A DNA stretch of 64,000 nucleotides from assembly GCA_025356475.1 (NCBI GenBank), contig JANXSX010000044.1, forward strand, positions 1 through 64,000, given 5' to 3'. The DNA comes from Isosphaeraceae bacterium. GTDB taxonomy: Bacteria; Planctomycetota; Planctomycetia; Isosphaerales; Isosphaeraceae. The notes under the pieces are model-generated. The model was not told the origin of the DNA. It searched no databases and worked only from the letters and a program-made list of their open reading frames with translations. A program made the translations under genes and the position numbers. How positions within the stretch are numbered: the stretch's first letter is position 1; the number at the start of each line of letters is the position of its first letter. Positions 1,776 through 35,694 of the stretch are shown here, piece after piece.

Positions 1776-3548
1776 TCAGCGACGGGTCGAGTCTGCCGAG
1801 TCGCTCGCCACCGCATGATCGTTGACTCGCAGAAGCACGAGTTCGCTCCGTTTGCGCTTGGGCTCGCGGTAGACGGCGGTGACGAGGCCATCGAGCGCTG
1901 TACCGAAGGTCTTCAAATCCTTCTCACGCATCAAGAAGTGGCGTGAGGCATTGCTGGAGTCACGCGTCCAGTCGATCAGCTTGGTCTTCTCGACCTCATA
2001 GCGCAGTTCCGGGTCGAGGATCAGCCGGTTTTTGCTCGCCGCGTCGGCGAGGTCGAACCCATCATTGTAAATCGGGTTGGTCCCGGGCACAGGGCGGAGG
2101 GCGTGCTTCTTCAGGTAGAACCACAGGCCTTCGTCAAGCTCGTGATAGAAGAGCAACGGCTTCTCGGAGTCGATCGGCAAATCGTCAAGGGTCTGGGCCA
2201 GAGTTCGATGGCTATAGTGGATATGCTCACCGGGGGCGATCACACCATAGCCGACGATGATTCCGAACGAGACCGAAGCGACTAAAGGGATCAAGGAACC
2301 GGCGTCGGCCCCTTGTCGCCAAACCAAAGCGCTGGCAACCACACCGATCGCGAGGGCGACGGCCATCACGCAGACAGCGAGAAAGGTGTTGGGCATCGTC
2401 TGCGACGCGACGACAGGACCCGCGATTGCCAAACTGAACAGAGCAACCCAGTGGAACTGGATCATGTGGACGGCCATGGGCACCGCCGACCTGGCCGCTC
2501 GACAGAGTCGGACCCACTCTAGGCCACAGAGGATCGCCAGGCCGGGGACACAGGGTAAGTAGTAGTTGGGTTTGGCCACGGTCCAGAAGCAGAACATGAC
2601 TAGGTTGCCAACCGACCAGAACCACAAGAGCCAGAGACCTCGCGGCTGGTCAACTCGCGAGCGCTTCACCAGCGGCATGACGATGCCCGAGAGTGCGACG
2701 AGGACCCAGGGGGCCGCCATCCAGGGCCAATCGACCGCCAGAGGTGGGCGATACTTGGCGTGATGGATGCCCGCTGTCCCTGTCTTCTGCGCCATCTCGA
2801 GATACCAGACCCGAATCGCGTTCGGGTCGCTCAAGATGACGGGGACCGGCCAGCTCAGAGCCAGTAATAGGAAGATCAGGACCCCCCAACCATCGATCAG
2901 GAGACGGAGGCCGACCTTAAGTCGTTTCTCAATCGCCAGATAGGGGACAAGGGCGAGACCCGCCATGAGCACAATGATCGGCCCCTTGGTCAGGAAACCG
3001 AGTCCGAGTGCTACATAGAAGAGGAGGACCCAGCGTCTGGCACCGATACCGGGCTGGGAACCCTCGGGATGGAGGCGTCGCCAGGCTGCATAGATAGCCA
3101 GTGTGGTGAAGAACGCGAGCGGGCCGTCGTTACCTGCCTGGCGAAGTTCGGCGATGAAGAAGCCGAGCGAGCTGAGCATCAGACCGCTCGCGAGCCCCAC
3201 GTCGTGGCCCCCGATCCGTTTGCCCAGCCCATAAACTAGCCCGATCATTCCGATCGCGGCCAATGCGCTCGGTAGGCGGACGATCCACTCATTGCGTCGA
3301 CCGGTCAGGGTCATTAATGTCGCGATTGTCCATCGCGGCAGAGGCGGCTTTTCCAGCCGAGGTCGACTTTGGATTTGAGCGATCAGCCAGTGATTCTCCG
3401 CCACCGTATCGATCGCCTCGGCTGCGGAGCGCTGCTCGCGCTTGCCCCAAAGATCGACCGAACCTAGGCAACCTAGAAAGGTAACGCAGGCCAGCAAGCC
3501 CAGGATCGCGACCGACGCCACCTGACTTCGATCCCGTTGCGTCGGCAT
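1776..3548 (-). CDS. GT39/ArnT-like membrane glycosyltransferase
   Basis: This 590-residue protein has about ten or more hydrophobic segments. Its first extracytoplasmic loop (LWGKREQRSAAEAIDTVAEN) lies where ArnT and protein-mannosyltransferase relatives bind the lipid-linked sugar donor. Family members move a sugar from a polyprenyl-phosphate carrier onto lipid, protein or another sugar on the outer face of the cytoplasmic membrane. The acceptor cannot be predicted. The C-terminal 170 residues form a soluble-looking domain after the last membrane span, as in many GT39 proteins. It lies 129 bases downstream of the TolB-like gene on the same strand, so co-transcription is possible. Confidence 0.82.
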   Translation of the reverse strand: MPTQRDRSQVASVAILGLLACVTFLGCLGSVDLWGKREQRSAAEAIDTVAENHWLIAQIQSRPRLEKPPLPRWTIATLMTLTGRRNEWIVRLPSALAAIGMIGLVYGLGKRIGGHDVGLASGLMLSSLGFFIAELRQAGNDGPLAFFTTLAIYAAWRRLHPEGSQPGIGARRWVLLFYVALGLGFLTKGPIIVLMAGLALVPYLAIEKRLKVGLRLLIDGWGVLIFLLLALSWPVPVILSDPNAIRVWYLEMAQKTGTAGIHHAKYRPPLAVDWPWMAAPWVLVALSGIVMPLVKRSRVDQPRGLWLLWFWSVGNLVMFCFWTVAKPNYYLPCVPGLAILCGLEWVRLCRAARSAVPMAVHMIQFHWVALFSLAIAGPVVASQTMPNTFLAVCVMAVALAIGVVASALVWRQGADAGSLIPLVASVSFGIIVGYGVIAPGEHIHYSHRTLAQTLDDLPIDSEKPLLFYHELDEGLWFYLKKHALRPVPGTNPIYNDGFDLADAASKNRLILDPELRYEVEKTKLIDWTRDSSNASRHFLMREKDLKTFGTALDGLVTAVYREPKRKRSELVLLRVNDHAVASDSADSTRR

Positions 3549-18233: not shown

Positions 18234-19085
18234 GGAGAGATCCCCGCGCACGTTGATCGTCCGGGTTCGGGCTCCTCGCGTCGTAGCGTCGGCGAGAAAG
18301 TCAAGACGATCAAGGCTATGGAACTCAACCCCGTCGCGGACTCAAAGTATCTCGAACCGCCGCTCTGAGGCATTTTGTTTCCCAAATACAACCTGGTCCT
18401 CTTCATTGCTTGCGTAAGAACCATCCTTTCGTGGTGGAATCGGTCTTGAAGAACTGAAGGAGCAGATTGCCTACCTTCCGCTGAGTCTGAGCGGACTCGT
18501 GCATCCGGTCGTTTTCCGGGAAGTCGTCGATCCCGAATCGAACGCCATTGCCGCGAGAGGTTGTTCCGTTCGACCAGCAATACGCCACCCAAATCAGTCT
18601 ATGGATATTCGTTCGGATGATGTTCGTTGGCGAGGACTCTTCCCGGGCTGGGACACGCGGGCATCGGTCGGGAAGACCCTGGGGCACCCGAAGAAAAGTG
18701 ATTCCTTGCCTATTCCTGAGGATCGTGATTCTCATGTTGTGACCCTCAGCTTGACGAGTCTTCCTTTTTTCATTTTGAACTTTGATTCTCCATTGAACCG
18801 ACTTTTTGAGAGTTTGATGCACAAGAATATTTGCGAAGGACAATCCAAAAAGATGTTCTAAGCTTCAGAGGCTTTTGGCCTACCCTGATTGTCTCCGAGG
18901 TGATTTGTCGGAGGATCGCGCACGGGAGTCGTGGCGGATCCAGTTTTCATCATGATATTTAGCAGGATTGGTCGATTCCGCGATGTTTGCGGAACTGAGC
19001 CGAAGCGTTCAACGTCTTGATTCCCTGCTTCGGAATCGGGATGGCGGCTCATTCGGGATGTTGGCTCCGAGGAGGAGTACCTCTA
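18234..19085. other. Long intergenic region, no supported gene
   Basis: About 850 bases contain short overlapping frames on both strands (for example 18403-18843 minus and 18499-18861 plus). None has a signal peptide, motif or good RBS. The end near 18234 should hold the promoter of the Gln/Arg-rich gene. Decayed coding sequence cannot be ruled out. Confidence 0.4.
19069..19077 (+). promoter_or_regulatory. Strong RBS that fixes a GTG start
   Basis: GAGGAGGAG lies eight bases before GTG 19086 and too far from ATG 19104, so it supports the GTG as the start of the glycosyltransferase. Confidence 0.65.
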
Positions 19086-20474
19086 GTGCAAACGGATTCG
19101 GCAATGCGGCGATTGGTCTGGTCGCTTTTGATCGTGGCCTTCCTCCTCAGGTTAGGTTTAGGGCTCGCGTTAGGACTAAATGATCCTCCCAAGACCGGCT
19201 CCGATGCCGAGGAATACGATACTTACGCTTGGAATGTGGTCAAGGGTCATGGATATCGGGGCATGAGTCCCGACGTGTCCAACCAAGACCATTTAACCGC
19301 CTATCGGCCTCCAGGAACCTCACTGACGTGGGCGATGATCTACCGAGTCGTCGGTCATCGCTTCGATGCGATCCGTCTTTTTGGATGTATTCTTGGCGCG
19401 GCTTCCGTATACGAGGTGTTTCGGCTCGGCCGGCGGCTGTTTACAACCAATGTTGGGTTAATTTCCGCAGCGGGATACACGATCTTCCCCCACGCCATTT
19501 TCTATTCCGTTGATCTAGGATCCGAAGTCGGGGCAACCTACCTATTCCTGCTCTACCTCAATCTTTTGCTTGACTTCGCCGATCGTCCCAACTGGACCAG
19601 CGCAACACTTGCGGGACTGGCCTTGGGGCTGGCGATGCTCTACCGGCCTGCATTCATGTTCATGATTCCGCTGACCATTCTCTGGGGAGCCTGGCAGTTC
19701 CGTAAGGTCCCTCATTCGATTGTCCAGGCCTCCTTCACAGTGGTCGTGGCGGTTACCTGCTTGATCCCCTGGACCGTGCGGAATTACGTTGTCTTCCAAG
19801 CCTTCATCCCGTTCTCAACGATGGGTGGGTCGGTCCTGCTCCAAGGCAATAACCGAATCGTGGCCGAGAACCCCGAGTTCTTCGGTTACAACGTCTGGGA
19901 CACGCAGATTCCCGAGTATGCTGATGCCCTTCGAGCACCCAACGACGAGCTTGTTCGCGACCGAGTCGCCGGTGATCTGGCGAAGGCGTGGATGAAGGAC
20001 AACCTGGAAAAGCTTCCGCTCATGGCTCTGGCCAAGTTGTATCGCGGCTGCACCCCCTTCTTGCAGCCGAAATCACCTTGGCATTTCCGTTGGGGAACAA
20101 GTTTGTCTTGGGGGCCTGTCCTCGTCCTGTTTCTGCTATCGGTGATCCCAACGCTGGTGGGCATGCTTCGATCCGAAAACCCGGGATGGATCATTCACCT
20201 GGGTCTCTTGCATTATGTTGCGGCGACCCTGATTTTCTTTGGCTACGCCCGTTATCGCCACGCGATCGAACCCCTCTGCCTGGTCCTTGCCGCAGTAAGT
20301 TTGCAGTATCTTTGGATCGAGATCGGCTCGTACGTAGTGAATACAGTTCGAGTGTTGAAGAGCAACACGAGACCGCTCCAACCCTGGAGCGTTCCCTCTC
20401 GCTTGATCCAAGCAAACCGTCGCATCGGCTGGCGTGATAAGGTCGTACCAGCCACGTCAGACGCCCAGGTTTAG
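19086..20474 (+). CDS. GT39-type membrane glycosyltransferase
   Basis: The 462-residue protein has many membrane spans and a first periplasmic loop with KTGSDAEEYDTYAWNVVKG. The acidic SDAEEY resembles the donor-binding Asp/Glu of PMT/ArnT-like enzymes, and HLTAYRPPGTSL also fits the family. It would transfer sugar from a polyprenyl-phosphate donor at the outer membrane face. It differs clearly from the GT39 gene at 1776-3548 and has a shorter soluble tail. It precedes the flagellar operon on the same strand by 342 bases, so it is probably not co-transcribed with it. Confidence 0.82.
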   Translation: MQTDSAMRRLVWSLLIVAFLLRLGLGLALGLNDPPKTGSDAEEYDTYAWNVVKGHGYRGMSPDVSNQDHLTAYRPPGTSLTWAMIYRVVGHRFDAIRLFGCILGAASVYEVFRLGRRLFTTNVGLISAAGYTIFPHAIFYSVDLGSEVGATYLFLLYLNLLLDFADRPNWTSATLAGLALGLAMLYRPAFMFMIPLTILWGAWQFRKVPHSIVQASFTVVVAVTCLIPWTVRNYVVFQAFIPFSTMGGSVLLQGNNRIVAENPEFFGYNVWDTQIPEYADALRAPNDELVRDRVAGDLAKAWMKDNLEKLPLMALAKLYRGCTPFLQPKSPWHFRWGTSLSWGPVLVLFLLSVIPTLVGMLRSENPGWIIHLGLLHYVAATLIFFGYARYRHAIEPLCLVLAAVSLQYLWIEIGSYVVNTVRVLKSNTRPLQPWSVPSRLIQANRRIGWRDKVVPATSDAQV

Positions 20475-20816
20475 AGTCGCCCCGCAGCCCTGACGCGGTC
20501 TGTTTCCTATACCGAAGGTCGGGACGTTGGAAAGGAAGCGAAGCCCCACGCCGATCGCCCAGACTGCCCCGAACTGGACTTGGATTCACCGCGAATCTGA
20601 TAAAAAATCGCCTGTTTGACATTGCTTGGTCGAGTTCTCGGGCTCCGATTGACAAAATCTGGCGATCTGCGATAACTCGCAACGCAGGATGCGGCAGATC
20701 TCGTCGTCCCATGGATGGGGCGGTTCCAGCGAGGTCTCACCCGACGTCCGATCCTCGAAACTTCGACGCCGACTCCCAGGGAACAGATCCCTGATGTGTG
20801 GCCGGGAGGCGAGTTG
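20475..20816. other. Leader region of the flagellar operon
   Basis: About 340 bases precede fliF. It contains a sigma-70-like promoter candidate (20649-20676) and a long untranslated leader. No sigma-28 consensus (TAAA and GCCGATAA) was seen. Confidence 0.45.
20649..20676 (+). promoter_or_regulatory. Candidate promoter of the fliF operon
   Basis: A perfect -35 (TTGACA) is followed after 16 bases by GATAAC as -10. Transcription would begin about 130 bases before fliF. A second TTGACA at 20616 has no partner -10. Confidence 0.4.
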
Positions 20817-22301
20817 ATGCGGACCGAGAGCCCCGACTCCCCCCGTTCGGCGTTCGATCGTATGAGATCGCGATTCGCCCAGTTCGGCACATGGCTAGCC
20901 GATCGCCCCTACCAAGCGCGATGGGGGCTGGGCATCGGTGCCGTCGTGATCATCGCGGCGCTCATCTATCTAGCGATCCCGACCGAACCGACCACTATCG
21001 CCTGGCTCGAGAGTGGCAAAGCATTTTCCGGTGAGCACTATGCCTCGGTCGTCAAGGCCCTTGCCTCCGAGGGGATCATCTATCGGCGCGATGGACAGGG
21101 TCGAATCGGTGTGGCGGCTGAGAAACTCCGGGAGGCGCAGACAGCGCTCACGAAACACAAGGTCAAGATCGACACCGTCAATACCCTCTTCGAGATTGAA
21201 CGCGACGTCTTGATCATGGACGGACCCGCAGAACGCGAGCAACGTTCACGAGGATCTACTGAGAAGTCGCTCCAAGCAATGATTGAAGATATTGATAATT
21301 CGGGTATCGAAACCGCAAGCGTGAAGATTCATCGGATCGTAGACCGGGTCGGTATCCGACCACAAACCAATGTTAGTGTCACTGTTTATGTGACGACCCA
21401 GAACAAGCGGAGTTTGAGCGGCGAGACCGTTCAGGCAATTCAAGCGTTCTCCCGGCTGATGATCCCTGAGTTGAAGCCGACTGCGGTCAATCTGGTCGAT
21501 CGCCAAGGACGTGAATACCTATCCTCTAAGAATCCCACCGCTGAGGTGATGTCACTCACCAAAGCGCGTGAGGAGAAGCTCAGCGATGGAATCGCCGAGA
21601 AGCTCGACTTCATCCCAGGCGTGAAAGTCACAGTCCGGATTGATCCACCGCCGGCCCCCATTCCAACGGTAGCCATCAAGTCCGTCCTGCCGCCCGAGCC
21701 CTTCGTTCGGCCCAATCATCCGATCGAGATTACCCCACCCGGAGCGGCGGATTCGGTCGGTTCAATGCCGCCGCAACTGGTCGAGATGACCGCGATGCCG
21801 CAGGGCAAAGCCCGGGTCTTGGTGCAAGTTCCTCGTAGCTTCTATCTCCGAGAGTTCCGCGCAGCCAATCGTCGCGATCCGTCACCAGAGGATCTCGGAC
21901 CTTACATCAATAAGATTCGACTGCTGGTGGATTCGGCAGTATCGATGATGTTTGCTCCCAAAGAAGGGGATGTACACATCGATATGATTCCCGACGAAAT
22001 CGAGCCCTTGCTCGCTACGGGTCTGACTGCGGCTTCGGACGAGCGCCGGGTGGCTCCATGGTGGTTGCCGGTTGGAGCGATGGTGGCGGCTGGGCTGGTT
22101 TTGTCGTTCGCGGCAGTTGGGGCCAGAAGCTTACGTCGTCCGGCATTACGATCAATCGTTCCGGCTCCCCATGCCCGATTCGACGCGGCCGAGATCGCGG
22201 GACCTGGACCTTCGGAACGAGTCCGCGACCTGATCCGCCGTAACCCGACCGCTGCTGCCGGAGTCCTCCAACGCTGGATTGGTCAAGGAGGGCGCGGCTG
22301 A
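20817..22301 (+). CDS. fliF: Flagellar MS-ring protein FliF
   Basis: FliF forms the membrane ring that carries the export gate and C ring. The 494-residue protein has a first span (GLGIGAVVIIAALIYLAI), periplasmic ring-building domains of the YscJ/FliF type and a second span (WWLPVGAMVAAGLVLSFAAV). A cytoplasmic tail ends with RVRDLIRRNPTAAAGVLQRWIG, the usual helix that binds the N-terminal domain of FliG. It is somewhat shorter than typical FliF (about 550). ATG 20817 follows GGGAGGCGAG and is chosen over an upstream in-frame start. Its stop overlaps the next gene (TGATG). Confidence 0.9.
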   Translation: MRTESPDSPRSAFDRMRSRFAQFGTWLADRPYQARWGLGIGAVVIIAALIYLAIPTEPTTIAWLESGKAFSGEHYASVVKALASEGIIYRRDGQGRIGVAAEKLREAQTALTKHKVKIDTVNTLFEIERDVLIMDGPAEREQRSRGSTEKSLQAMIEDIDNSGIETASVKIHRIVDRVGIRPQTNVSVTVYVTTQNKRSLSGETVQAIQAFSRLMIPELKPTAVNLVDRQGREYLSSKNPTAEVMSLTKAREEKLSDGIAEKLDFIPGVKVTVRIDPPPAPIPTVAIKSVLPPEPFVRPNHPIEITPPGAADSVGSMPPQLVEMTAMPQGKARVLVQVPRSFYLREFRAANRRDPSPEDLGPYINKIRLLVDSAVSMMFAPKEGDVHIDMIPDEIEPLLATGLTAASDERRVAPWWLPVGAMVAAGLVLSFAAVGARSLRRPALRSIVPAPHARFDAAEIAGPGPSERVRDLIRRNPTAAAGVLQRWIGQGGRG

Positions 22302-22849
22302 TGAGTGCGACGACGGAATCCATCGCGAGCGAGAACACATCCGCAGTAACCTCGCCCCTGCGCAAAGCGGCCATACTACTGGTAAGTTTGGAGCAACCGC
22401 TGGCATCGCAACTGCTTGCCCAACTCGATCGATCGGCAGTCGAGGCGGTGACACTCGAGATCGCCCGACTTGATCGGATCGCTCCGACCGAACAACACTC
22501 CGTTCTTGAGGAATTTTACGGCTTGGGTTTGCGACGTCTGCGATTTGTCTTCGATGATCTTGTGAAGATGGACGATAAAGTGATTCGGGATGTGTACCAC
22601 GACGAAGACTCACGCGCCTGGGCACTTGCCCTTGCGAGTGCATCTCGACCGGTACGCGATAAGGTGTTGAATGCCCTGTCGGTCAGCTCTTCGGAGTCTC
22701 TCAACAGGACACTCAATCACCTCGGCCCTTTTCGGCTGGATGACGCTGAAGCGGCTCAGGCCGACCTGGCCGAGCGACTTCGACGGCTCCATGACCATGG
22801 CCAACTCACCCTACCCGACCCCGAAGGTCAGGAGGCCATCCTTGTCTGA
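22301..22849 (+). CDS. fliG: Compact FliG-like protein: FliG N domain joined directly to a C domain
   Basis: FliG links the MS ring to the rotor and stator. This protein has only 182 residues, against about 335 normally. Residues 18-78 (LRKAAILLVSLEQPLASQLL to VLEEFY) match the FliF-binding N domain. From about residue 84 (FVFDDLVKMDDKVIRDVY) it matches the C-terminal torque domain; the middle domain with its EHPQ FliM-binding motif is missing. By hand alignment to E. coli FliG, the torque-helix residues K264, R281, D288 and D289 are Ala, Ser, Arg and Thr, and only R297 is kept. A strong AAGGAGGG RBS precedes it. A second FliG-like gene follows. Confidence 0.8.
   Translation: MSATTESIASENTSAVTSPLRKAAILLVSLEQPLASQLLAQLDRSAVEAVTLEIARLDRIAPTEQHSVLEEFYGLGLRRLRFVFDDLVKMDDKVIRDVYHDEDSRAWALALASASRPVRDKVLNALSVSSSESLNRTLNHLGPFRLDDAEAAQADLAERLRRLHDHGQLTLPDPEGQEAILV
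22830..22835 (+). promoter_or_regulatory. RBS that fixes a TTG start for the second FliG-like gene
   Basis: A perfect AGGAGG inside the end of the first fliG-like gene lies six bases before TTG 22842. ATG 22791 lies upstream of it and has no comparable RBS. Confidence 0.75.
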
Positions 22850-23150
22850 CCTCGTCGATTTTGAAGATCTCAACCAGCTCGACGGCGGCGACCTTCGCGC
22901 TGTTTTCGATCAGGTTGAAGAGCCTCTGGTGCTTGACGCACTCGTTGGCTCATCTGTCAACCTGCGGCAGCGGCTCCTGACGACATTGCCGCGAGCCTCG
23001 GCCCAACGGATCGAAGATCACCTCATTACGCACCGTGTGGTCACGTTCGAGATGGCGTTTGCCGCCCAGCGAACGGTGGTCGAGACCATGTGCCGGCTCA
23101 GTCGAGCCGGTATCGTGGCCTTCGATGACCCTGCGGATATGGTCGCATAG
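22842..23150 (+). CDS. Second FliG C-domain-like protein
   Basis: This 102-residue protein starts at TTG inside the end of the preceding gene (8-base overlap) and is led by AGGAGG. DFEDLNQLDGGDLRAVFDQV and the following helices (LRQRLLTTLPRASAQRIEDHL, VVETMCRLSRAGIVAF) align with the FliG C-terminal domain over its whole length, so it looks like a free-standing duplicate. In hand alignment to E. coli FliG, K264 becomes Val, R281 Ala, D289 His and R297 Thr; D288 alone is kept. It may form part of a split or modified C ring. It is not a frameshifted tail of the first gene, because that gene already has its own C domain. Confidence 0.68.
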   Translation: MSDLVDFEDLNQLDGGDLRAVFDQVEEPLVLDALVGSSVNLRQRLLTTLPRASAQRIEDHLITHRVVTFEMAFAAQRTVVETMCRLSRAGIVAFDDPADMVA

Positions 23151-23204: not shown

Positions 23205-23678
23205 ATGTGCCGCTGGATGCCAGGCACTGGATGGTTCAACGACCAAAGGCGCTGGACGAGAGCTTTGGGCTGCTGGGGGTTGGGATTTGTCCTGATCACC
23301 GCAGTCCCAGTTCTGGCCCAAGGTCCGGACCAATCCGCGAATCCACAACGATTGACAATTTCACCTCCCTCGGGGAGGCACAGCGTATTGGCCAGTCCGG
23401 GGTCGTCCTCGACCGGTTGGTGGGCAGGAACGGCCGGCATGACGCTCGCACTTGCAGCCTTCGGCGGCGTGAGTCTGGCGGTAAAGCGTTGGGGTGTGCC
23501 CAGCGTCGGTGAACCGGCACTTCTTCGCGTTGTCAGTCGTACATCTCTGTCACCCCGACACTCCGTTTATGTCGTCAAAGTTGAAAACCGAACCCTCCTG
23601 ATCGGTACTGGCCCCCAGGGTCCTCCGTCAATTCTGGCCGAACTCGCCGCCGCCGACGATCCAGGGGGGGCAGAATAA
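23205..23678 (+). CDS. fliO: Flagellar export protein FliO
   Basis: FliO helps FliP assemble into the export gate. The 157-residue protein has a signal-like first segment, a membrane span (WWAGTAGMTLALAAFGGVSL) and the typical cytoplasmic tail LLRVVSRTSLSPRHSVYVVKVENRTLLIG, matching the FliO pattern of Leu-basic-Ser-Leu, hydrophobic strand and LLIG. Low conservation is normal in this family. Its place between fliG and fliP supports the call. The stop overlaps the fliP start (TAATG). Confidence 0.82.
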   Translation: MCRWMPGTGWFNDQRRWTRALGCWGLGFVLITAVPVLAQGPDQSANPQRLTISPPSGRHSVLASPGSSSTGWWAGTAGMTLALAAFGGVSLAVKRWGVPSVGEPALLRVVSRTSLSPRHSVYVVKVENRTLLIGTGPQGPPSILAELAAADDPGGAE

Positions 23679-31379: not shown

Positions 31380-32306
31380 TCAGCGACCGACTTGTTCGAG
31401 TGCCCACCGCGCACGGAGCGTGGTGAAGAACCCTGGCCGTCTCGCTCGAGAACCTCGCTCATCGGTCAAGATGCCGGCAAGCCGGCGTGTCGATCGAGAA
31501 GCCAGACCATTTGGTGCTTCAATGAGGTAGGGGCGTCGGGCCCGCACCGCGTCTGGAACACCAAGATCATGACGGATATAGCCGAGTGGCTCGACCACCA
31601 TACCAAGGAACTCGCGACTTGTCGCCGTGATTCGTGACAAGAGCTCGGAGCCCTCGACGTCAGTCCGCGCCTGGTTGACCAGAATGCGGAGCATCGGTGG
31701 ATGTGGTAAGCGCCGGAATCGTCCGATCGCGGCGTGGGCATCCGCAGTGGATGTCGGCTCGGGCGTCGTGACCACCACGACTTCATCAGCCGCAGCGGCC
31801 AATGTCGCGATGGCCGATCCAAGCCCGCTACCGGCATCAATGATCACGTGATCGGATTCCGCCTCAAGTGCGGCGAGACCAGCAGCGAGCCGGGCTGGCC
31901 CATCGGCCAATACCTCGACCAGCGTCCGCATTCCGTGCGCACCTGGAACGATCTTGATCCCTGCCGGACCGTCGACAATCGCGGATTCGAGGGGGCAATC
32001 GCCCACCAGAACGTCGCCAAGGTCACAGCGAGGAGCCAGCCCGCACAACAGGTCGATATTGGCGAGACCAAGATCGGCGTCGACCAGCAGGACGCGACGT
32101 CCCAACTCTCCCAGCGCGATTGCCAGGTTGAGGGCCACGTTCGATGTGCCGACGCCTCCCTTGCCGCTCGTGAACAGCAAAGATCGGGCCTTGGTCTTCG
32201 GTCGTGGAGGTTCAGGCTGAGCTGGTCGTGGAGGTGGATCGGCCAGCCCGGTACTTCCCGAGCGTGCCTGGACCCATTGTCGTAATCCGTCGGCTTGGTC
32301 GGGCAT
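31380..32306 (-). CDS. flhG: FlhG/FleN-type MinD-like ATPase with altered P-loop
   Basis: FlhG controls flagellar number and stimulates the GTPase FlhF. The 308-residue protein starts with the activator motif DQADGLRQ (DQAxxLR). It has the MinD-like signatures LLVDADLGLANIDLLCGL and HVIIDAGSGL. In the P-loop it reads GKGGVGTSNVALN, so the invariant lysine of GKT/GKS is Thr54 (ACA); an AAA-to-ACA change explains it. ATP hydrolysis is probably impaired, while the FlhF-activating N terminus is kept. GGGGAG precedes the chosen ATG. Confidence 0.85.
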   Translation of the reverse strand: MPDQADGLRQWVQARSGSTGLADPPPRPAQPEPPRPKTKARSLLFTSGKGGVGTSNVALNLAIALGELGRRVLLVDADLGLANIDLLCGLAPRCDLGDVLVGDCPLESAIVDGPAGIKIVPGAHGMRTLVEVLADGPARLAAGLAALEAESDHVIIDAGSGLGSAIATLAAAADEVVVVTTPEPTSTADAHAAIGRFRRLPHPPMLRILVNQARTDVEGSELLSRITATSREFLGMVVEPLGYIRHDLGVPDAVRARRPYLIEAPNGLASRSTRRLAGILTDERGSRARRPGFFTTLRARWALEQVGR

Positions 32307-32381
32307 ACTTGCTCCCCTCTGGATCAGTCGTGAATGATGGCGATGACGTGACATTCTCTCAGAATATGATGCGTATGACCG

Positions 32382-33509
32382 TTATTGAACAACCTCATGA
32401 CCTAAGATCAAACGTGCTAATCTCGCCCGATTCGCAGGCTCAATATCGTCGGGAACCGCCTGGCCCGTCGTCAAGTAACTTACAGGTCGATCCGCATGAC
32501 CAAGTACGGAAAGCACCCCGCCCAGGCCGTCGGCTTCATCCAGCTTGGTCAGGATCAACCGATCCGCGCGGACGATGCTGAACCGTTCGACGGCTGCCCG
32601 GAGACTTCGCTCGCCAGCAACCGCACTTAATACGAGGTGGGTCTCATCGGGACGAACCGCGCTCAAGAAGTCGGCAAGCTCACGGATCTTGACCTCATCA
32701 CGCGGGCTACGTCCTGCGGTGTCAATCAGTACGAGATCGACATCCCCAAGCTCTTCGATCGCCCTGCGCATCTCTCCAGGGGCGTTCGCGACAGCCAGAG
32801 GTAAATCGATGATCTCGGCATACGTTCGCAACTGTTCGACTGCAGCGATCCGATAGGTATCGACCGTCACCAGGCCTGTTCGCAGACCATGAGCCAGTTT
32901 GAAGTTCGCGGCCAGCTTCGCCACTGTGGTCGTTTTACCGACGCCTGTGGGACCGACCAGGGCGACAACTCGTCGTGTACCGGGCACCACAGCGATCGGT
33001 GGAGCGATTGGTACGCACCCTTCCACCGCGTCGCACAAGGCGAGCCGGACAGCCTCAGGTCGGGCGAATTCCTCGGGTTCGAGCCGCTCGGCAACGTGGC
33101 GGACCAGTCGTCGTGCGAGAGCCTCGGGGACTTCCGCTTCGAGCAAGTTCGCATAGGTTGGGACGAGCTCTGCGGGTAACTCGGGGAGCAAGTGATCGAT
33201 GCGTCCCTGGCGGCTCAGATCTTCAACCATCGCGTGGAGCCGGCTCAGTTGGTCTCCGAACGAGGCCTGGAAGTTACTGACCGGCGAGATGATGGGGACG
33301 GAGACAGTCGGTGTGTTGGTGGAGGCCGAGGACATTGCGTTGTCAGTCGCGGTGACCTCGACCAATTCGCGGGTGCCCAGGCCGAGGAATCTTCGACGGC
33401 GGACCTCACGCGTGCCGAGGATTACCGCACCTCCGCCCAGGTCCCGCCGGACCTGCGTCAGGGCTTCCTTGAGAGTCGCGGCTCGGTAAGTTCGGGGGTT
33501 CGCGGGCAT
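32382..33509 (-). CDS. flhF: SRP-type GTPase FlhF
   Basis: FlhF marks the site of flagellar assembly at the membrane. The 375-residue protein has a basic N-terminal region (PANPRTYRAATLKEALTQVRRDLGGGAVILGTREV) and a middle linker. The SRP-type NG domain shows GPTGVGKTTTVAKLAA, VDTYRIAAVEQLRTYA, LIDTAGRS and LTKLDEADGLGG. All GTP-binding motifs appear intact. It lies 52 bases after flhA and 75 before flhG. Confidence 0.93.
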   Translation of the reverse strand: MPANPRTYRAATLKEALTQVRRDLGGGAVILGTREVRRRRFLGLGTRELVEVTATDNAMSSASTNTPTVSVPIISPVSNFQASFGDQLSRLHAMVEDLSRQGRIDHLLPELPAELVPTYANLLEAEVPEALARRLVRHVAERLEPEEFARPEAVRLALCDAVEGCVPIAPPIAVVPGTRRVVALVGPTGVGKTTTVAKLAANFKLAHGLRTGLVTVDTYRIAAVEQLRTYAEIIDLPLAVANAPGEMRRAIEELGDVDLVLIDTAGRSPRDEVKIRELADFLSAVRPDETHLVLSAVAGERSLRAAVERFSIVRADRLILTKLDEADGLGGVLSVLGHADRPVSYLTTGQAVPDDIEPANRARLARLILGHEVVQ

Positions 33510-33561: not shown

Positions 33562-35694
33562 TTAGCCGATTGTCACAGCGGTACTCATATTATTGACTGT
33601 CTGACTTTCATCCTCAATGACGAGGCCAACGGTCTCGACCGGGGTATCGCGAGGAATCTCGCGCTGGCTGAGGACGACGAGTCGGTGCAGATCGGCACGG
33701 GTGAGATCCTTGAGAACGGGTCTCGCCTCAGGCGAGCAGAGAACGATCGGCGGGTGGCCTTCCTCAATGAGTGGCTCGACCGCGTGGGCCACGGCCCGGA
33801 TCAAAGCGCGGGTCGCCTCCGCGCCAAGTAGAGCTGAGGGACGGGTTTCCGACTGACCACCGATCGCCATCAACTTCAAGTCGAGCGACCTGGGGATGCT
33901 GATCACACGAAGATGACCATCTGTGCCGAGGTAACTTTGGGTGATTCGCCTGGCGAGGCCTCGCCTTACGTGTTCGGTCAAGGCGTCGGTATCACGGGTC
34001 CGGCTTGCCTCCATCGCGAGGGTTTCCAGAATCGTTTCCAGGTCACGGATACTGACCCGCTCCCGGAGTAGATTCTGCAAGACCCGCTGGACTTCACCGG
34101 CGCGGAGCAGGCCTGGGATAACTTCGTCAACCAGGGTAGGGGAGGTGGTCCTGACCCGATCGAGCAGCCTCCCCACCTGTTCACGTGTCATGAGTTCATC
34201 GACATGCGAGAGGACGATTTCGGCGAAGTGCCCCGCGACGACTGCGGATGCTTCGAGCACTCGGCAACCTGCGAGTTCAGCCACTTCGCGACCGTCAGCA
34301 TGAATCCAGACCGCTGGCTGGCCTGAGACCGGCTCAACGCCGTCTCGCCCGGTCGGTTGTGAGACCAATCCTTGGGGAGGAATTGCCAGAAGGCGACCGG
34401 CGTAGGCAACCCCTTGGCCCACGACTGCGCCTCGGATCTTCAAGCGGTAGTCATGAGGTCCCAAGCCGATCTCATCGCGAATTCGTACTTGGGGCACGAT
34501 CACGCCAAGATCGCGAGCGACCCGCTGTCGAATCGATCGAAGTCGTTCGAGCAGGTCACCTCCCCGGGTCGGCTCGGCGAGCGAGATCAGGCGATAGCCG
34601 ATCTCAAGCTCGAGCGGATCGACCTGGAGGAGATCCTCCATACGGTCAACGGGAACTTCCTTCGCTTCCTGGACGCTCGCTTCGTGCTCCGGACGCACGC
34701 TTGCAGTCCGCTTACGCGTTGCGAGAACGTAGGAGCCTGTCCCTAACGCAGCCGCAAGGGTCAAGAGCGGGGCTTTGGGGAGTTCGGTCAAAGAAAGCAG
34801 GACAAGGAAGACGGCCGCAGCGCCTAAGACCTCGGGTCGACCGAAGAGTTGGCTCGTCACATCCTTGCCGAGATCGCTCTCCGACGAGGACCGAGTCACG
34901 ATCAAGCCTGCTGCAAGTGAGATCAGGAAGGCAGGCACCTGACTGACAAGGCCATCACCGATGGTGAGCTTGGTGAAGATCTCGACTGCTTCGCCGATGT
35001 TCATCCCGTGGACGACGATCCCCATATAGAGGCCGCCGAGAATGTTCACAAAGGTGATCGCGACACCTGCCACGGCGTCACCTCGGACGAATTTCCCAGC
35101 CCCGTCCATTGCTCCGAAGTAGTCGGCCTGACGATAGACCAGGTCGCGACGTCGGGCGGCTTCGTGTCCGTCGATGATATTCGCGTGCAGGTCGGCGTCG
35201 ATCGCCATCTGGCGACCGGGGAGACCATCAAGCATAAATCGGGCCGCCACTTCGCTGATACGAGTGGCCCCTTTGGTGATCACGACGAACTGGATGACCA
35301 CGAGGATCGCGAACAAAATCGCGCCGACCACGACCTGATCACCAGCAACGAACTCGCCGAACGCCCGGATCACGCCCCCCGCCGCATCAAGGCCTTTTTC
35401 GCCCCCTTGGGTGAGGACGAGTCGGGCAGTTGCGACGTTGAGGACCAAACGCGTCAGGGTGGTTGTTAGCAGTATTGTTGGGAACGCGCTAAACTCTTGG
35501 GGGCTCTTAATCGCAAGCGTGGTCAAGAGAACGAGCACGCCGAGGGTGATGTTTGCCGAGAGCAAAATGTCGAGCGCCCAGGCCGGGACCGGAACGACGA
35601 AGACGAGGATCGCGCCGATGATTGTGATCGGTAACACCACGCCAGTCAGGCGTGAGATACCGACCGATTCGCCGATGGGCGGTGTGGGAGGCAT
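33562..35694 (-). CDS. flhA: Flagellar export gate protein FlhA
   Basis: FlhA forms the nonameric export gate that couples proton flow to export and binds substrate-chaperone complexes. The 710-residue protein has eight spans in the first half. It carries the FHIPEP signature RISEVAARFMLDGLPGRQMAIDADLHA, with Arg in place of the common Lys, and FVRGDAVAGVAITFVNILGG. The cytoplasmic C domain starts near residue 340. Length is normal. GAGGAGAGG precedes the ATG. It is the first gene of the minus-strand flagellar cluster. Confidence 0.95.
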   Translation of the reverse strand: MPPTPPIGESVGISRLTGVVLPITIIGAILVFVVPVPAWALDILLSANITLGVLVLLTTLAIKSPQEFSAFPTILLTTTLTRLVLNVATARLVLTQGGEKGLDAAGGVIRAFGEFVAGDQVVVGAILFAILVVIQFVVITKGATRISEVAARFMLDGLPGRQMAIDADLHANIIDGHEAARRRDLVYRQADYFGAMDGAGKFVRGDAVAGVAITFVNILGGLYMGIVVHGMNIGEAVEIFTKLTIGDGLVSQVPAFLISLAAGLIVTRSSSESDLGKDVTSQLFGRPEVLGAAAVFLVLLSLTELPKAPLLTLAAALGTGSYVLATRKRTASVRPEHEASVQEAKEVPVDRMEDLLQVDPLELEIGYRLISLAEPTRGGDLLERLRSIRQRVARDLGVIVPQVRIRDEIGLGPHDYRLKIRGAVVGQGVAYAGRLLAIPPQGLVSQPTGRDGVEPVSGQPAVWIHADGREVAELAGCRVLEASAVVAGHFAEIVLSHVDELMTREQVGRLLDRVRTTSPTLVDEVIPGLLRAGEVQRVLQNLLRERVSIRDLETILETLAMEASRTRDTDALTEHVRRGLARRITQSYLGTDGHLRVISIPRSLDLKLMAIGGQSETRPSALLGAEATRALIRAVAHAVEPLIEEGHPPIVLCSPEARPVLKDLTRADLHRLVVLSQREIPRDTPVETVGLVIEDESQTVNNMSTAVTIG

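Follow-up and report, generated by a model that had tools for sequence, protein, structure and literature searches.

A torque-less mini-FliG in the Isosphaeraceae suggests a family-wide switch of the flagellar machine from swimming to another job

In the flagellar C-rings of Escherichia coli and Thermotoga maritima, the gene of the rotor protein FliG lies behind fliF, and the protein has FliG_N and FliG_C folds and the FliF tail as its partner. Flagellum-type export genes also occur in bacteria without flagella. Those of non-flagellated Lysobacter enzymogenes, which retains FlhA, FlhB, FliP, FliQ, FliR and FliI, are described as exporting a foreign flagellin and affecting twitching (PMC7277350). 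The Myxococcales have a strongly conserved non-flagellar type III secretion system (T3SS) with an export core, an ATPase and a smaller inner ring protein; it has no rod or stator and is said to lack FliG (PMC3459982). The sorting platform of the injectisome contains one protein with FliM-like and FliN-like parts (SctQ) and a short adaptor under the inner ring (SctK). Here we describe a locus in a 64,000-nucleotide stretch of an Isosphaeraceae genome (the window: assembly GCA_025356475.1, contig JANXSX010000044.1, positions 1 to 64,000, forward strand), in which two short FliG-like proteins, the first called G1 and the second G2, are encoded in the place of FliG. In searches of the open-licence PMC literature, no paper on this planctomycete system was evident by title or abstract.

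G1 shares with flagellar FliG the position behind fliF, the two folds and the FliF tail as the expected partner, but it carries a deletion of ~167 residues and has lost the torque charges, and a second C-domain gene follows it. The Isosphaeraceae, like Lysobacter, are non-flagellated and keep FlhA, FlhB, FliP, FliQ and FliR; in contrast to Lysobacter, no FliI was found, FliG is remodelled, FliM and FliN are apparently fused, FlhB lacks its NPTH motif and the system is retained in the whole family. Compared with the Myxococcales system, a reduced FliG is present, an ATPase was not detected and FlhA falls with those of planctomycete flagella. The likeness to the sorting platform of the injectisome is one of analogy, as G1 is a FliG by descent and not an SctK, an SctN ATPase was not detected, and FlhA scores higher as a flagellar protein (761 versus 511 bits). 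The machine lacks features that define a flagellum and, within the tests made, also features that define an injectisome. We read it, with a probability of roughly 0.6, as a flagellum-derived export machine without torque and without an ATPase, in which the mini-FliG would link the FliF ring to the FliM-FliN fusion as a static adaptor. The central genes of the window and their parts are the following.

20715..22301, + strand: fliF, encoding a diverged MS-ring protein; PF01514 (YscJ_FliF) 59.8 bits at residues 107-266, no match to YscJ_FliF_C
22215..22298, + strand: C-terminal tail of FliF, ERVRDLIRRNPTAAAGVLQRWIGQGGRG, by homology the FliG_N-binding segment
22301..22849, + strand: G1, mini-FliG of 182 amino acids; ATG start, overlaps the fliF stop, first half of FliG_N fused to FliG_C
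22355..22522, + strand: FliG_N part of G1, residues 19-74; PF14842 52.8 bits, profile positions 4-59 of 104
22529..22813, + strand: FliG_C part of G1, residues 77-171; PF01706 78.2 bits, profile positions 14-108 of 108
22830..22835, + strand: ribosome-binding site of G2, AGGAGG, read from the sequence inside the end of G1
22842..23150, + strand: G2, FliG_C only, 102 amino acids; TTG start, overlaps the end of G1, PF01706 41.1 bits at residues 3-92

A preliminary description of the window had proposed that two short FliG-like genes replace fliG, and the profile searches bore this out: both proteins exceeded the Pfam cut-off for FliG_C (23.3 bits) and G1 also that for FliG_N (25 bits), so that the likeness is not due to chance. 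A full-length fliG elsewhere, which would have refuted the description, did not appear in the genome of the window (G000, 232 contigs): the FliG_C profile search passed the cut-off only at G1 and G2 and gave a third match of 12.9 bits, below it. The NCBIfam FliG equivalog TIGR00207 (cut-off 226.7 bits) was not reached by G1 (91.2 bits) or G2 (20.6 bits). The description had also seen an N domain joined directly to a C domain with the middle domain skipped. The middle domain is indeed missing, the FliG_M profile giving G1 only 20.3 bits, under its cut-off of 25 and on the same residues as the FliG_N match; however, just the first half of the N domain is present, and the deletion covers the remainder of FliG_N and ARM_C as well as the whole FliM-binding FliG_M with its EHPQR motif.

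The AlphaFold model of G1 (predicted local distance difference test, pLDDT, 88.1; 25 sequences), which like the model of the fusion described below is of a single chain and not of a complex, has the junction as one continuous helix at residues 62-81. Residues 15-80 fitted the FliF-bound FliG_N 5tdy_B (Z 11.2, root-mean-square deviation (rmsd) 1.5 over 66 residues, 39% identity) better than the FliG_M 4qrm_D (Z 8.1, rmsd 2.4 over 62, 23%), and residues 83-170 fitted the MotAB-bound FliG_C 8ucs_H (Z 13.1, rmsd 1.7 over 88). In the alignment with other planctomycetes, the stretch LRKAAILLVSLEQPLASQLLAQLD...VLEEFY of G1 tracks the start of their FliG_N, and the match resumes where LRRLRFVFDDL of G1 corresponds to IRRLMFVFEDL of their FliG. 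A split or frameshifted full-length FliG was rejected, since G1 and G2 both contain FliG_C and neither contains the middle domain, and because the junction and the TTG start are also fixed across loci. G1 is a FliG by descent, yet it fails two defining features of FliG, the middle domain and the torque charges.

The torque residues, given in E. coli numbering, were counted in 25 G1 proteins (from 25 of the 39 genomes with a FliG_C match), 11 G2 proteins and 13 full-length planctomycete FliGs. In the window, G1 has K264A, R281S, D288R and D289T and keeps R297, while G2 has K264V, R281A, D289H and R297T and keeps D288. The hand alignment of the preliminary description gave the same result, with K264, R281, D288 and D289 lost in G1 and all but D288 lost in G2. 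Each of K264, R281, acidic 288 and acidic 289 was present in 13/13 full-length proteins, whereas the G1 proteins retained K264 in none, R281 in two, acidic 288 in two and acidic 289 in one. R297 was kept in 23 of the 25, the other two having lysine. For G2 the counts were 0 (K264), 0 (R281), 3 (acidic 288), 1 (acidic 289) and 0 (R297). As read from these alignments, the torque charges are lost family-wide. The FliGs of another planctomycete family, labelled f3 (L096-L101), have an EQ-type motif in place of EHPQ and no R297 (0/6), with R281 and the acidic residues 288 and 289 in 6/6 and K264 in 5/6.

The remaining parts of the motor were searched for in a set of 45 Isosphaeraceae genomes that includes the genome of the window. 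MotB_plug was over the cut-off in 0/45 (one sub-threshold match; MotA was not searched for) and flagellin in 0/45 (three sub-threshold). The FliI/YscN family TIGR01026, which also covers SctN, reached its cut-off of 379.5 bits in 0/45; the best match had 237 bits, and the sub-threshold matches are presumably the F-type ATPase and Rho. No rod or hook protein was over the cut-off in the genome of the window. Among the 45, FlgE/F/G-type proteins (Flg_bbr_C) occurred in one genome and Flg_bb_rod in three (G006, G018 and G043). G006 has no FliG or FlhA match, and the rod contigs of G018 and G043 are homologous to each other, carry an orphan FlgB and have a G+C below that of another locus in the respective genome. 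These matches are probably foreign contigs, that is, contaminants. Homologous contigs with an orphan flgB were seen in two metagenome-assembled genomes of the family belonging to different genera (L212 and L213), probably the same kind of contaminant.

A rotary motor is not detectable in the family by the MotB_plug, flagellin, FliI and rod/hook searches, MotA not having been searched for. The earlier expectation that a full rotor made in this way should not turn normally thus understated the case. Described Isosphaeraceae are reported as non-motile except for the gliding Isosphaera pallida (PMC7716859, PMC12402505, PMC12603096), and flagellar assembly genes have been noted as poorly represented (PMC5352709). 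The gliding of I. pallida (PMC7716859), the retained FliG_C fold seen bound to MotAB, R297 in most G1 proteins and the absence of MotA from the searched families would suit a mini rotor that an unconventional stator, of the ExbB/TolQ type or another, continues to turn, for instance in gliding. We consider this very improbable, because no genome had MotB_plug over the cut-off and the torque charges are gone throughout the family, also in members described as non-motile.

Retention was examined by profile searches of the same 45 genomes, 26 of which were classed as good (completeness at least 90%, contamination at most 5%). FliG_C was found in 39/45 genomes and FlhA in 42/45, and both were present in 26/26 good ones. 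A scan of named genomes gave 37 loci, of which 24 belong to the Isosphaeraceae and 13 lie outside the family in other classes or phyla; some of the named Isosphaeraceae loci come from genomes also counted among the 45. Against a reference profile of 13 full-length planctomycete FliGs (346 positions), all 24 Isosphaeraceae loci had the same two-block architecture, in which the match ends at position 73-78 and resumes at 240-242. Mini-FliG was found in none of the 13 outside loci, which all encode ordinary full-length FliG, as do the 30 best-scoring loci of the class (30/30). The f3 family also has full-length FliG at L096-L099, with L100 and L101 running off contig ends. One further candidate for an N-C protein, L130, was rejected, being a normal FliG of 341 amino acids.

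The ratio of nonsynonymous to synonymous substitution rates (dN/dS) was 0.08-0.32 for G1 (6 pairs) and 0-0.46 for G2 (4 pairs); both genes are under purifying selection. A local accident of the genome of the window is rejected by the retention of FliG_C and by the common junction across the family, and the deletion is exact and old. The system could still be a decaying relic of the lost flagellum with no present function, given the non-motility of members other than I. pallida (PMC7716859, PMC12402505), the poorly represented assembly genes (PMC5352709), the many missing parts (rod and hook, MotB, FliI, flagellin) and the loss of G2 and of the fusion in some lineages. This is unlikely, since FlhA and FliG_C persist in every good genome at dN/dS well below 1, the FlhA charges discussed below are invariant and the G2 start is identical in all G2 loci read. 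Plain loss looks different, as in nine f3 genomes which, among those listed in both searches, have neither FliG nor FlhA.

A second, adjacent FliG_C (G2) was listed in 12 of the 45 genomes. In the 11 G2 loci that were read from these 12, the start was always a TTG located precisely 5 bases ahead of the G1 stop codon, preceded by AGGAGG or GGGAGG (11/11); the TTG at that place was kept in 2 of 14 loci in which no G2 was detected. By these sequence features G2 is a real gene, and the C-domain copy with its own AGGAGG (22830-22835) and TTG start is as first described. Mapped on the G1 tree, G2 occurs in deep branches but not in several nested ones, so that an ancestral origin with repeated loss is probable.

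Relatives of fliF lie upstream of G1 in the family, and a FliF tail of the window type was found in 23/25 loci; for comparison, the tail of E. coli FliF is IREMSDNDPRVVALVIRQWINNDHE. In other bacteria the FliF tail co-folds with FliG_N (PMC7355467).

The partner on the other side of FliG is represented by a sole FliN-type protein, found once per genome in 34/45 genomes and 21/26 good ones. In the genome of the window it has 380 amino acids, and its gene lies behind those of a histidine kinase and a response regulator. Its model (pLDDT 84.3, 31 sequences) matched the FliM middle domain 4gc8_A at residues 14-186 (Z 15.7, rmsd 3.2 over 168) and the engineered FliM(SpoA)::FliN 4yxc_B at residues 206-380 (Z 15.2, rmsd 2.8 over 141), and as modelled the protein is a FliM-FliN fusion. 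Of fliM, fliN and motB, genes named in the preliminary description as worth looking for, the first two are thus represented by this fusion and the last had no match over the cut-off. The FliM profile was over the cut-off in 0/21 family genomes, with sub-threshold matches in 3/21 on open frames of the same length beside the FliN match. The SctQ-type TIGR02551 gave the fusion 92.4 bits against a cut-off of 100.8; no SctQ N-terminal structure appeared in its fold list, which does not exclude an SctQ identity. The glycine at E. coli FliM position 133 was present in 25/25 planctomycete FliMs and in 0/31 fusions (F 18, Y 9, D 2, H 2). This position lies in the GGXG motif, which we take to be part of the FliG_M contact, and with FliG_M also lost, both sides of that FliM-FliG contact are therefore missing. 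Between the response regulator and fusion genes lies a gene for a protein of ~288 amino acids without a Pfam family (L037:1320-2183, - strand), conserved in the compared loci. In the f3 family, the FliM profile was over the cut-off in 1/19 genomes.

Downstream of G2 the window encodes the export gate, and further on flhA and its neighbours.

23205..23678, + strand: fliO; PF04347 32.5 bits
23678..24466, + strand: fliP; PF00813 211.4 bits
24496..24762, + strand: fliQ; PF01313 76.2 bits
24785..25546, + strand: fliR; PF01311 159.4 bits
25565..26599, + strand: flhB without the NPTH autocleavage motif; PF01312 153.1 bits
30348..31148, - strand: FliA/WhiG-type sigma factor; TIGR02479 268.6 bits, cut-off 189.6
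31380..32354, - strand: MinD/FlhG-like ATPase; AAA_31/ParA match, minD-type families below cut-off
32382..33509, - strand: flhF; TIGR03499 195 bits, cut-off 174.15
33562..35694, - strand: flhA, well conserved; PF00771 777.7 bits

FlhA, FlhB, FliP, FliQ and FliR are all above their Pfam cut-offs in the window. FlhA reached 761.2 bits with the flagellar equivalog (cut-off 772.1) and 510.8 with SctV (cut-off 692.25), neither cut-off being attained. In the FlhA tree, the family was monophyletic (support 1.0; 14 tips, of which two represent one gene) among planctomycete flagellar FlhAs, which argues for vertical descent. The residues R147, R154, D158, K203, D208 and D249 of FlhA, which we take to be those of proton-coupled export, were kept in 13/13 family sequences, and the export engine looks live from its sequence. 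The NPTH motif was absent from all 24 family FlhB translations (0/24; three are repeat loci of a genome and four cannot be judged at the site) and present in E. coli FlhB and in 2/2 other planctomycetes. With no hook or filament to order, the specificity switch of FlhB would be without use. Secretion without the ATPase is described as possible in Salmonella given a raised proton motive force (PMC4230889). In the f5 family, several genomes have a second FlhA-like match to the C-terminal half only (~309-656 of 657), in frames of ~505-533 amino acids.

The genes flhF and fliA-type lie beside flhA in 10/10 compared loci (the window and nine others), and the MinD-like gene in five. FlhF is a signal recognition particle (SRP)-type GTPase for the polar placement of flagella. 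Together with the polar budding by which cells of the family divide (PMC12402505, PMC12603096), this neighbourhood would fit a complex without any export role that FlhF and the MinD-like ATPase place at the pole, where it would serve as a scaffold for cell polarity or budding. We hold such a scaffold to be unlikely, as it would need neither the proton-channel residues of FlhA nor the whole gate of FliP, FliQ, FliR and FlhB. It is equally doubtful that only the anatomy stands and that the system regulates something else, in the manner in which FlhA, FlhB, FliI and FliR act on twitching in L. enzymogenes (PMC7277350); Lysobacter retains FliI and still exports foreign flagellin, whereas FliI was found in 0/45 genomes here. 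The conserved genes upstream of fliF in relatives are not recognisable as T3SS parts; they encode PMT-type glycosyltransferases and, in one case, a protein with no family assignment. Genes of the PMT type lie in the window at 19017-20474 and 1779-3548, and in several genomes of the family a relative of the latter is found shortly upstream of fliF.

The gene content and domain architecture, the loss of the torque charges, the purifying selection and the retention of the system across the family and of the named FlhA residues are all established. From them we propose that motility was lost in the ancestor of the Isosphaeraceae and that G1 and G2 would be rotor-derived parts of a type III export machine descended from the flagellum. 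In this proposal G1 combines the FliF-binding half of FliG_N with the C1-6 end domain through the continuous helix. To judge by its domain content alone, it may be a short static adaptor, holding the fusion ring (where present) under the FliF ring and the gate of FlhA, FlhB and FliPQR, much as SctK joins the ring and the SctQ pods in the injectisome. G2 would be a duplicated C1-6 domain, translated from the same message in a coupled manner; it is probably a ring partner of G1 that adds a further C1-6 layer and was lost several times. If secretion continues, its energy would come from the proton motive force, with neither FliI nor an FlhB specificity switch taking part. The wider claim, to which we would give slightly less than even odds, is that this is a third kind of type III machine that evolved independently from the planctomycete flagellum, with no motor, axial filament, ATPase or FlhB switch, with a C-ring rebuilt from mini-FliG and the FliM-FliN fusion, and with an export of a family-specific substrate powered by the proton motive force only.

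Several observations weigh against an export machine. The fusion is absent from 5/26 good genomes (G003, G004, G005, G012 and G034), and it is therefore not essential everywhere. FliF is weakly conserved, and G1 is strongly diverged in the deepest lineages (L041 and L052). FlhF, the MinD-like protein and the sigma factor fit a role in polarity equally well. A sigma-28-type promoter pattern was matched once in the window against 0.57 expected, which is chance level, and at none of these genes; among 215 loci, 11 had one match.

What is known of how a flagellum turns into a secretion machine without motility comes mainly from a single ancient event, the origin of the injectisome from the flagellum. 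The Isosphaeraceae are an apparent second case, vertically inherited and found in cultured bacteria including Singulisphaera acidiphila. Its parts can be read, as the torque charges, the middle domain, the ATPase and the cleavage motif are lost and the proton-coupling residues are kept. With this case one can test which parts export by itself requires, and whether a FliM-FliN fusion and a short FliF adaptor recur once selection for rotation has ended. Together with the retained export core, the shortened, torque-less rotor protein suggests that in the whole family this machine has been given a task other than swimming, most likely the export of proteins.

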